Under the pieces are notes generated by a model, which worked only from the letters and a program-made list of their open reading frames with translations, ran no database searches and was not told where the DNA came from. The translations under genes were made by a program, and so were the position numbers. From the NCBI GenBank assembly GCA_020443325.1, contig JAGRIK010000077.1, positions 1 through 32,783 on the forward strand: a stretch of DNA of 32,783 nt. The letters are read 5' to 3'. The DNA comes from Halioglobus sp. Its GTDB lineage: Bacteria > Pseudomonadota > Gammaproteobacteria > Pseudomonadales > Halieaceae. This document shows positions 1 through 15,846 of the stretch, piece by piece. Positions within the stretch are counted from its first letter, which is position 1, and each line of letters begins with the position of its first letter.

Positions 1-53
1 CCGGCAGGCGTTTCACCAAGCGAATCACGTGGAGCGACTGAAACGCCTGCCGG
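1..53. repeat. Conserved-loop palindrome, copy A1
   Basis: Perfect 15-bp inverted repeat. The left arm CCGGCAGGCGTTTCA is at 1-15 and its exact reverse complement at 39-53, around a 23-base loop at 16-38 that contains CACGTG. The whole 53 bases recur identically at 6234-6286. The loop recurs in reverse complement at 6076-6098 inside a different stem. The right flank (GCGAGCCCGTCG at 57-68) is also shared with the second copy. The element begins at the first base of the window, so it may extend further left. There is no U-tract after the stem in either direction, so it does not look like an ordinary terminator for bioA. Confidence 0.95.
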
Positions 54-5234: not shown

Positions 5235-5243
5235 ATTCGGGTC

Positions 5244-5305
5244 GCGACAACCGCGACAACCGCGACAACCGCGACAACCGCGGCAACCGCGGCAACCGCG
5301 GCAAC
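5244..5305. repeat. 9-bp tandem repeat (seven units)
   Basis: Seven consecutive units lie between the convergent stop codons of ybbP and the tetR-type gene. Four copies of GCGACAACC (5244-5279) are followed by two of GCGGCAACC (5280-5297) and a last unit (5298-5305) that lacks its final base. The clean switch from the A-type to the G-type unit suggests one substitution that then spread by slippage. No open reading frame uses it and there are no spacers, so this is a minisatellite and not a CRISPR array. Copy number is probably variable between strains. Confidence 0.95.
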
Positions 5306-5348
5306 ACTGCGCACTTGCGCCGCGACCTACCTCGGCCCTTGATGCCGC

Positions 5349-5996
5349 TCAGTCGCTGACGGGTTTGTCCGGGGATGGAGAATAGCTGATCCCGTCGAGA
5401 AAGATCTGCACGCCAAACTTCACCTGGCGCTGCAAATCGATGTAGCGCTCGAACAGCTGCGGCGCATCAACGAGCAACGTCGCGAGACCATAAATACTGG
5501 ACCAGGCGGCATTCGTCATGTAAGCGACATTATCGACGTGTCGAAAAACACCACTGTCCACACCGCGTTGCAGAATATCCTGCACCAGTTGCAGCGTGTC
5601 GCGGCTGGCCTTGCGCAACTCGGGGTATTTAACGGTAGGTTGCACTGCCGGGCCAAACATCAGTTTGAACAGTTGCGGATTGCGCGCCGCATAATCCACA
5701 TAGGTCTGGGCGAACGCGAGCAACTGTTCCTGCGGGCAATCGCCGGTGCTCTCTCCTGCGCTGCGCAGGGCATCGAGCAGGTTGCGGTAGCCGTCAGTCG
5801 CCATCGCAGCGAGCAGCTCGCTCTTGTCGGAGAAATGGCGATAAGGCGCAGTCTGGGAGACCCCCACCGCGCGGGCCAGTGCCCGCAGGCTGAGTTCCTC
5901 GACTCCGTTAACCTGTAGCTGTGCGATAGCCGTGGTGAGCAGCTCCGCGCGGAGGTTGCCGTGGTGGTAGCTTTTTGAGGTCGCGGTTTCGGTCAT
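5349..5996 (-). CDS. TetR/AcrR-family transcriptional regulator (WHG-type C-terminus)
   Basis: This is a 215-residue DNA-binding regulator. The N-terminal helix-turn-helix is clear (about residues 36-56, [21 protein letters not shown]), preceded by [10 protein letters not shown], which is typical of the TetR subgroup with a WHG-type ligand-binding domain. The C-terminal 130 residues are helical and hydrophobic, as expected for a ligand pocket and dimer interface. It is convergent with ybbP and followed upstream by a 421-base non-coding region, so its targets are not obvious. It may regulate itself. A short palindrome TAAGCTTA at 6001-6008 lies directly before the start codon. The ligand is unknown. 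Confidence 0.93.
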
Positions 5997-6048
5997 GGCG
6001 TAAGCTTAACCTAAAATGGGTGGACTCTGGGAAGTGGCTTTGTAGGGC

Positions 6049-6125
6049 GGTTACGGATAGAAAAAGTGTTTCTCAGTCGCTCCACGTGATTCGCTTGGTG
6101 AGAAACACTTTTTCTATCCGCAACC
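6049..6125. repeat. Conserved-loop palindrome with a different stem, copy B
   Basis: The arms at 6054-6075 and 6099-6120 are perfectly complementary over 22 bp (inner part AGTGTTTCTCA / TGAGAAACACT). Pairing extends outward by another 4 of 5 bp (6049-6053 with 6121-6125, one mismatch). The 23-base loop at 6076-6098 is the exact reverse complement of the loop of copies A1 and A2, and the CA/TG dinucleotides touching the loop are also kept. The rest of the stem shares only a short GTTT stretch near the loop with the A stem. It lies about 55-130 bases upstream of the tetR-type start codon. The T-run at 6109-6113 lies inside the stem, so this is not a terminator. Confidence 0.96.
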
Positions 6126-6222
6126 TCAGTGCACACCATTCGACTAGATCACAAAAAATATGTTCCATTCATACACTTCACAATCTAGCGTTCGTCATAT
6201 CGTGCCGTAGCCTTGGGATGCA

Positions 6223-6297
6223 GGGCTCGTGCACCGGCAGGCGTTTCACCAAGCGAATCACGTGGAGCGACTGAAACGCCTGCCGGGGTGCGAGCCC
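6223..6297. repeat. Conserved-loop palindrome, copy A2
   Basis: The inner 53 bases at 6234-6286 are identical to 1-53: arms 6234-6248 and 6272-6286, loop 6249-6271. Here the left context is visible, and the pairing resumes outside the perfect stem: GGGCTCG at 6223-6229 matches CGAGCCC at 6291-6297, with an imperfect 4-base stretch between. It lies in the same spacer as copy B and in opposite orientation, so the two 23-base loops are themselves complementary to each other at a distance of about 150 bases. Confidence 0.96.
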
Positions 6298-6417
6298 GTC
6301 GGCCACGACTAACCCCCCGACTGCGCTACAAAAAAATTCAACTCATTGGTAGCAGGAACCAACTAGAAGGGACCAACCCCAACAGATCAGCCCCCTCAAC
6401 GACATGGAGTGCGAATA

Positions 6418-7398
6418 TTACGGCAGCAGATGCTTAACCGCGTCCCGCTCTTCAGCCAGTTCCTGCTCGGTAGCCGTCATCTTCGCGCGGCTGAAATCGC
6501 TGATCTCGGCGCTCTGTACAATGGTCCACTCGCCGTCGCTGCAGCGGCAGGGGAAAGAGTAGATCAGGCCTTCCTGGATACCGTAGGAGCCGTCGGATTG
6601 CACGCCCATGGAAACCCAGTCATCGCCCTCTGTGCCCAGTGCCCAGGAGCGCATGTGCCCGATAGCGGCGTTGGCGGCCGAGGCGGCTGAAGAGGCGCCG
6701 CGCGCCTTGATGATTGCCGCGCCGCGCTGCTGTACCACCGGAATGAAGTCGTTTTCATACCACGCCTGGTCCACGAGGCTGATCGCGGGTTCGCCGTTGA
6801 CCTTCGCGTTGAACAGGTCGGGGTACTGGGTGGCGGAGTGGTTGCCCCAGATTGTCATGTTGGTCACATCGTTGACGGTCTTGCCGGTCTTGAGTGCTAT
6901 CTGGGTTTTCGCGCGATTGTGGTCGAGGCGTGTCATCGCGGTGAAATTGTGTGGATTGATGTCGGGGGCGTTGCGCTGGGTGATCAATGCGTTGGTGTTT
7001 GCGGGGTTGCCGACTACCAGCACCTTGATGTTCCGGCTTGCGTGATCGTTGATCGCCTTGCCCTGGACGGAGAAGATTGCTGCGTTGGCTTCCAGCAGGT
7101 CCTTGCGCTCCATACCGGGGCCGCGTGGACGCGCGCCGACCAGCAGGGCGTAATCGGAGTCCTTGAAACCGGTGTTGGGGTCGTCGGTGCAGACAATACC
7201 TGCCAGCAGGGGGAACGCGCAGTCCTCAAGCTCCATTTTAACGCCGTCGAGGGCTTCCATCGCCGGCGTGATATCGAGCAGTTGCAGTATCACAGGCTGG
7301 TCATCGCCGAGCATCGCGCCGGAGGCAATGCGGAAAACGAGTGCGTAGCCAATCTGGCCAGCCGCGCCGGTTACAGTCACACGAACGGGTTGTTTCAT
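6418..7398 (-). CDS. mdh: Malate dehydrogenase (NAD-dependent, LDH-like type)
   Basis: Mdh interconverts malate and oxaloacetate with NAD in the cytoplasmic TCA cycle. The 326-residue product belongs to the group found in Burkholderia, Xanthomonas and many marine proteobacteria rather than to the E. coli mdh group. Visible features are the nucleotide-binding [10 protein letters not shown] (11-20), Asp42 at the end of the second strand (favouring NAD over NADP), and substrate arginines in [13 protein letters not shown] (Arg92, Arg98). The nicotinamide-side VVGNPANTN (about 128-136) follows, then the catalytic pair Asp159 in TRLDHNRA and His187 in IWGNHSATQ. It is monocistronic and divergent from ttcA. 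GAGGATC upstream of the ATG is a suitable ribosome binding site. Confidence 0.97.
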
Positions 7399-15447: not shown

Positions 15448-15487
15448 TTCGAATAAATGGTAGGTCATACGCTCCTGTAGTAAGCGA

Positions 15488-15599
15488 GGCGTTGTAACAC
15501 TTGCCCTATTGCAGGACTGTGCGAGACATGGATGTCGAGCTCAAGCCCCCATGGATGGGTTCACGGCGGGTCCTGCAATAGGGCAAGTGTTACGACGCC
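15488..15599. repeat. 112-base compound palindrome with two internal hairpins
   Basis: The 30-base arms at 15488-15517 and 15570-15599 pair at 29 positions; the one exception (15493 with 15594) would be a T-G wobble. Inside the 52-base centre are two small hairpins built on the same core CATGGATG. GACAT-GG-ATGTC is at 15525-15536 and CCCAT-GG-ATGGG at 15548-15559. The outer bases differ but stay complementary in each. The centre resembles, from memory, a repeat seen between genes in marine gammaproteobacteria such as Marinobacter. It lacks a U-tract but could still end or process the ccm transcript. Confidence 0.93.
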
Positions 15600-15846
15600 G
15601 GATTGAACGCAAGTTCTTATCCTCACGTTGATAGAGGGTAATACACTTTTTAGGTTGTTTGACTGTAGTTTTTTGTTACTCATGACCTCCCGAAAAACGA
15701 ATTTCCGTATTTCCCCTATTCAGGCATAGTGTTGTTCGATTAAAGTATATACACTACATCTTGTGTTTCGGCGACGGCGTAAAATTCTTCAAAATCCGGA
15801 ATAAATCTATAAAAAACATATAGTTGTGCAACATACTTAAGGTTAT
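15600..15846. other. AT-rich leader region before smc
   Basis: This stretch is visibly richer in A and T than anything else in the window and has no gene. Candidate promoter pieces exist, such as TTGTTC at 15732-15737 with the TATATACA region at 15746-15753, or TATAAA at 15808-15813. None has both boxes at good spacing, so no promoter is called. TTAAGG just before the smc ATG is an adequate ribosome site. Confidence 0.6.

Follow-up and report, generated by a model that had tools for sequence, protein, structure and literature searches.

The repeat described here is a stem-loop, dispersed and mostly intergenic, in which a 23-nt apical motif (loop L) stays constant on top of a sequence-free stem of about 23-27 bp, the pairing of which is maintained by matched changes in both arms. 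The strand that bears the motif (the L strand) tolerates G.T pairs but not A.C pairs, and the constraint acts on this strand folded by itself. We suggest, with a probability of roughly 45%, that the repeat is a loop-tagged, REP-like, non-autonomous element, the folded single strand of which is bound through its loop by a trans-acting factor. The copy from which the analysis started lies in a 32,783-nt contig of a Halioglobus genome, here called the window; its parts are listed in Table 1.

Table 1. Parts of the window copy and the second A-type hairpin (a dot means that no strand is assigned).
Feature	Position	Strand	Remark
Two-hairpin repeat unit	6027..6348	.	common to other copies in this genome
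Hairpin B	6049..6125	-	27-base arms, one mismatch, inverted repeat 96% complementary; L strand is the minus strand
Loop L of hairpin B	6076..6098	-	
Spacer between hairpins B and A2	6126..6222	.	contains both 5' flanks (L-strand sense)
Hairpin A2	6223..6297	+	26-base arms, three mismatches, inverted repeat 88% complementary; L strand is the plus strand
Loop L of hairpin A2	6249..6271	+	
Hairpin A1, second A-type copy	1..53, loop 16-38	+	truncated by contig start

A preliminary description of this DNA had reported three palindromes with an identical loop, the stem of B being 22 bp long and those of A1 and A2 15 bp, and on rereading the window its coordinates and stem lengths were borne out. The B core (6054-6120) forms 22 perfect pairs and, extended to 6049-6125, 27 pairs with one mismatch; the A2 core (6234-6286) forms 15 perfect pairs and, extended to 6223-6297, 26 pairs with three mismatches. 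A1 (1-53) likewise has 15 perfect pairs, anything further left being missing at the contig start, and in this draft genome several contigs start or stop within the repeat. The A1 region is a direct repeat of 6234-6317 (92% identical over 84 nt), and a 29-base string, TCA-loop-TGA, is the same in A1, B and A2, inverted in B. DNA folding of the extended B and A2 gave z scores of -8.8 and -7.9, equalled by 0 of 200 shuffles, while the minimum free energy computed for hairpin B as RNA was -44.5 kcal/mol for the minus strand and -41.0 for the plus strand. Alignments to other copies in the genome span up to query 37-359 of window 5990-6350. The window copy is without the outer inverted repeats that better preserved copies have, and terminal repeats CAGCGTGTTGAAAAAG with up to three mismatches were absent from the window. 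Two other features of the window are recorded in passing: a match to the Rfam TwoAYGGAY RNA at 15481-15606 (46.2 bits against a gathering score of 43), lying across an inverted repeat of 30 nt that is 97% complementary, and a 9-bp tandem repeat (CGCGACAAC / CGCGGCAAC) at 5243-5314, in six overlapping 27-nt copies.

The loop recurs across this genome and beyond it. With up to three mismatches allowed, 40 + 66 = 106 copies were found in the draft genome (4.7 Mb in 365 contigs), the reversed control giving 0 + 0. A covariance model of the repeat, R2, made 114 matches in this genome, 71 in Pseudohaliea rubra (G030), 48 in Halioglobus MAG_Ve_Sed_32, 36 in Lysobacter concretionis, 18 in the distant relative G581, 16 in G016 and 2-4 in each of the five Pandoraea genomes searched; these are matches at E up to 0.001, not each inspected. 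Counting this genome every time, L was present in 5 of 57 relatives' genomes, in 3 of 390 genomes of an order-level sample, in 2 of 369 at class level and in 2 of 398 at phylum level, where the other case is a chance palindrome in G812. An exact-pattern scan over one genome per species, with a pattern that excluded this genome's loop variants (A at position 12), returned 105 stretches; once chance matches without paired arms (L150, L161 and L172) were dropped from the counts, 22 carrier assemblies were left. These belong to the Halieaceae (Pseudohaliea rubra, Halioglobus and others), to Lysobacter (L. concretionis, L. antarcticus and L. sp. A03), to one Lysobacterales MAG, to seven Pandoraea and to gammaproteobacterial MAGs.

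A phage origin was considered and rejected: viral contigs held 0 matches to the exact pattern and 7 to a looser one, 0 of the 7 with paired arms, and their 36 matches to a 15-base G581-type pattern included none with GAGCGAC within 60 bases, while a phage search yielded only 4 matches, all partial (51-66% of the query) and with E values from 1 to 4. A plasmid origin was likewise discarded, the plasmid search having returned no match.

The freedom of the stems was assessed at 222 distinct sites, each taken with 40 bases on either side; 57 of them come from this genome, and two chance coding sites had been removed. The arms pair over at least 15 bp at 207 of the 222 sites and over at least 20 bp at 196, leaving 15 with a shorter stem or none; stem length is 20-29 bp at 191 sites, with medians of 26 in Halieaceae, 23 in Lysobacter and 24 in Pandoraea. 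At a 75% identity cut-off the 207 stems fall into 43 unrelated clusters. Arms that are complementary and yet differ in sequence from copy to copy, as foreseen in the preliminary description, are thus the rule, and the outcomes that it had held would speak against its proposal are not those observed: the loop is found elsewhere, most flanks are complementary, and the stems are not one sequence. When sites with stems shorter than 15 bp are left out, the paired fraction is 0.81-0.98 over stem positions 1-22, 0.77 at position 23 and 0.84 at position 24, and it then drops outward to 0.72, 0.67 and, at position 27, 0.44.

Covariation between the arms of 35 ungapped cluster representatives was 1.18, compared with 0.236 (sd 0.018) after shuffling and at most 0.224 with a slid partner; 97.6% of cells pair in these representatives, a high fraction that is partly built in, since they were picked from stems of at least 20 bp. 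Pairs changed on both sides numbered 23 against 21.6 in shuffles, and 83 of 500 shuffles were as high. Matched changes can also be followed at orthologous sites. In the gap between leuD and a CoA-transferase gene (names assigned by eye), genomes G000 and G016 both carry a hairpin pair in which the stem changes are matched and the loops hardly differ, leuD being 82% identical; the same gap is empty in G001. In the rpoC-rpsL gap (again by eye), stem changes between H. japonicus BC5_1 and 7_bin.18 are mostly matched, rpsL being 91% identical. In these two Halieaceae genomes the hairpin pair lies at 796-1013 in L093 and at 4605-4799 in L117, with EF-G further on, by Pfam for L117. At one orthologous site (L196 at 7054, L193 at 14673) the loop is inverted in G000 relative to G016, with the outer left flank in common; the opposite orientation reflects either an inversion between the arms or an independent insertion.

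Neighbouring hairpins within 900 bases of each other were oriented (-,+) 62 times, (-,-) 6 times, (+,+) 6 times and (+,-) 0 times, copies inside one genome not being independent in this count; in inverted neighbours the L-strand 5' flanks always face each other, 62 to 0. Units of L. concretionis are mostly tandem or single. Home-made gene calls place 144 of the 151 sites that could be classified between genes, a further 75 sites at locus edges being left unclassified. Convergent genes flank 53 sites, tandem genes 79 and divergent genes 12, compared with 149, 405 and 120 when all adjacent genes are counted. A hairpin standing alone is sense to its upstream gene in 28 cases and antisense in 18, and the L strand is therefore more than just the 3' end of a host gene message. 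In L. concretionis (e.g. L110, L170, L173) we also noted a second dispersed repeat around CCGCAACACCCCGCCAGGACGCCGCATCGGC, located 5' of 7 of 30 hairpins at a varying distance. A GGCAC motif 5' of some hairpins was considered as a sigma-54-like element and set aside because its spacing, judged by eye only, does not fit.

An indication of how the stems are constrained comes from their imperfect pairs, which were always scored on the strand with CCAAGCG. The 4805 pairs include 186 G.T, 12 A.C and 56 other non-Watson-Crick pairs; after repeats of one event were removed the counts are 100, 12 and 48, and in the cluster representatives alone 36, 3 and 21. In a control of sixty motif-free hairpins of similar size from the same loci, run with the motif hairpins masked, G.T and A.C are nearly balanced (60 and 53, with 158 other). 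Ten copies in the distant relative G581 have 41 G.T, 0 A.C and 15 other pairs, reducing to 5, 0 and 4 distinct events. Because duplex, cruciform and copying are all strand-blind, the large excess of G.T over A.C shows a constraint on the L strand folded alone, and the pattern fits RNA as well as single-stranded DNA. For hairpin B, the bias marks the minus strand as the folded one. A strand-specific mutation bias could mimic part of the effect, if it were strong and common to several groups. One-strand wobble bias offers a simple test for other palindromic repeats, separating duplex DNA from a folded single strand.

The same counts bear on fold-back (quasi-palindrome) copying, a process known in principle, by which one arm would be rewritten from the other so that pairing arises without selection for structure. 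It would account for arms that are often perfect though the stems wholly differ between clusters, and the loop inversion between G000 and G016 is something that arm recombination could do. However, a strand-blind process predicts about as many G.T as A.C pairs, as in the control, and not 100 against 12; it also leaves the constant loop, the stem length and the 62-to-0 orientation unexplained, and we regard it as very improbable. Of the two explanations offered in the preliminary description, this one fails as the whole cause of the pattern, although copying of this kind may contribute, whereas the other, a putatively recognised loop on a stem kept for structure only, gains support from the 43 stem clusters, the covariation and the strand-specific wobble.

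The apical motif mostly reads C[C/A]AAGCGAATnnCGTGGAGCGAC. It varies at positions 11 and 12, has either C or A at position 2 and is otherwise near-constant within the limits set by the search pattern; information reaches 2.0 bit in the loop, which was part of that pattern, and at most 0.58 bit at positions 20-28. The G581 relative, detected by the model alone, has the form CAAA-GCGAGTTATCG(C/A)-AGATTGT..-GAGCGAC, in which the motif retains its ends around a lengthened middle, and its apical part contains GCGA-GTTA-TCG(C/A) between the constant CAAA and GAGCGAC. This suggests, on thin support, that a short helix, GCGA/UCGY, lies inside the apical motif: of 213 loops, 140 have A-U and 68 have A.A at pair 8-12, and 2 change from G.U to G-C at pair 5-15.

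It is quite possible, if short of an even chance, that the repeat acts as a structured RNA. Either a promoter of its own or read-through would then yield transcripts of the L-strand hairpin, the apical motif of which would bind a protein or another RNA; the motif may fold on itself, with the GCGA/UCGY helix lying between a constant CMAA and GGAGCGAC. The tolerance of G.T and not A.C on one strand is in accordance with this, as are the longer apical part in G581 with its constant ends, the replacement of G.U by G-C at pair 5-15 and the preference of the sites for positions 3' of genes. Against it, the inner helix is weak, given the A.A at pair 8-12, and single hairpins have no clear sense bias; moreover, a simple pattern scan of 5900-6500 found no sigma-70-like promoter and no terminator around the window copy, and no Rfam 15 family reached its gathering score at this copy, the sole one scanned, where matches below gathering occur.

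In this genome the better preserved copies are elements of ~450 bp with terminal repeats CAGCGTGTTGAAAAAG and, in several copies, CTAG at one or both ends (on both sides in L005 and L014). No autonomous parent of this element was found, the loop-less terminal repeats in the places examined being near contig ends or partnerless. In Pandoraea terrigena the element is a long inverted repeat with 291-nt arms that are 84% complementary and, by eye, with no convincing gene inside; the element occupies one orthologous place in six Pandoraea genomes. The terminal repeats with their CTAG flanks and the long arms in P. terrigena would suit a view of the palindromes as passive parts of MITEs, in which the constancy of loop and stem merely reflects recent spread. 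We think this unlikely, since recent spread can neither keep 43 unrelated stems pairing nor create a strand bias, and since outside this genome outer inverted repeats beat all 30 shuffles in only 7 of 39 pairs (3 of 18 here by the same crude test). L. concretionis, with its single and tandem units, and carriers whose single units are without inverted repeats also speak against it.

The preliminary description had looked to a RAYT-like gene, the copy number of which would follow the elements, and this expectation was not supported. The Y1 transposase domain (PF01797) occurs in 10 of 22 carriers (one assembly being counted twice, matchless both times), and it was not found in P. rubra, with its 71 matches, nor in G016 and G034; a gene may have been lost or left unassembled. 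A reverse transcriptase was rejected as partner, since PF00078 is present in 3 of 22 carriers and out of step with the repeat: this genome, P. rubra and L. concretionis had none, and Halioglobus MAG_Ve_Sed_32 had 3 matches. A neighbour gene conserved across genera was also rejected. Ten of the recurring ORF clusters were scanned, and all proved to be ordinary genes of the host (transporters, a TonB receptor, EF-G, dehydrogenases, a protease, HlyD-type and DksA-type proteins and a xerC-like integrase), with the integrase, from Lysobacter, the sole recombinase-like family among them. In three Lysobacter genomes (L130, L131 and L185) the hairpin pair adjoins this xerC-like ORF cluster, identified by Pfam as an integrase for L130 only; the three probably represent one inherited site.

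Between the two readings of the folded strand, we slightly prefer the single-stranded-DNA, REP-like one to a structured RNA, because the hairpins are oriented almost without regard to host transcription and the units occur in a dispersed manner. The factor would most likely be a single-strand DNA-processing enzyme outside the Y1 family, which, binding the loop, would have dispersed the hairpin units; in this genome an ordinary transposase would presumably have multiplied the unit further, within the ~450-bp element that has CTAG-type ends and terminal inverted repeats. Several observations weigh against the REP-like reading. No enzyme was found, Y1 and reverse transcriptase not being in step with the repeat; tolerance of G.T suits single-stranded DNA no better than RNA; at some places (in two Halieaceae and in six Pandoraea) the element has not moved; the ~450-bp inverted-repeat element accounts for part of the spread here; and the number of pairs changed on both sides did not rise above that in shuffles.

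We tentatively propose, at somewhat less than even odds, that the long arbitrary stem merely presents the fixed 23-nt motif, which would be read by a single-strand enzyme or act as a structured, perhaps catalytic, RNA. If so, stem and signal are fully separated, the reverse of REP and attC, in a motif common to Halieaceae, Lysobacter and Pandoraea. This would be a natural separation of hairpin structure from recognition signal, with compensatory changes visible both within one genome and at orthologous sites. The partner, if found, would represent a new kind of loop reader, either an enzyme or an RNA-binding factor, with a fixed 23-nt target on any stem.

Full-text searches of the open-access literature, outside which most subscription papers lie, listed no repeat in which the stems are free and a long loop is constant, passages of PMC2864571 included. 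The nearest relatives in behaviour are the REP and REPIN families, described in the accessible part of PMC3733652 as palindromes scattered outside genes, either alone or as inverted pairs with mostly 20-100 bp between the members, with stems of 6-13 bp, loops that are for the most part very short, and a tag, GTAG or CGTC; they lie between convergent or unidirectional genes, and G.T pairs have been noted in them. TnpA-REP reads the tag, bulge and loop of the folded single strand, on one strand only, and IntI is named as comparable to it (in the part of PMC8266576 at hand). L hairpins resemble REPs in being dispersed, extragenic, preferentially 3' of genes and present as inverted dimers (62 pairs). 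They differ in that their stems of ~23-27 bp have no fixed sequence and the constant part is the 23-nt loop; the 5' foot carries GTAG in 7 of 43 clusters and the 3' foot CGTC in 4 of 43. Of 27 hairpins in P. rubra (e.g. L068, L184), 18 have GTAG at the 5' foot, like GTAG-type REPs, and no Y1 was found in that genome. Unlike in a RAYT-mobilised REPIN, Y1 was not found in 12 of 22 carriers of L. The L repeat works like a REP but misses two defining features, the tag and the size, as well as the enzyme test.

In IS200/IS605 elements the same strand is used at both ends, whereas inverted L neighbours are always on opposite strands, 62 to 0; a Y1 gene was also not found in P. rubra, G016 and G034. 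IS200/IS605 subterminal hairpins are recognised single-stranded through the loop and mismatch features, according to the same part of PMC8266576, and the L hairpin is similarly constrained as a single strand. Like the structured RNAs of Rfam, the repeat has a covarying stem round a constant core and tolerates G.U on one strand; none of the known families reached gathering score at the window copy (the only one scanned). Integron attC sites share with it a folded single strand, a largely free stem sequence and a strand preference, and in them constant boxes are found at the foot of the stem and the loop varies. Conserved foot boxes of the attC type are absent from the L repeat at positions 20-28 (at most 0.58 bit); it is constant in the loop instead of at the foot, and its sites are dispersed.
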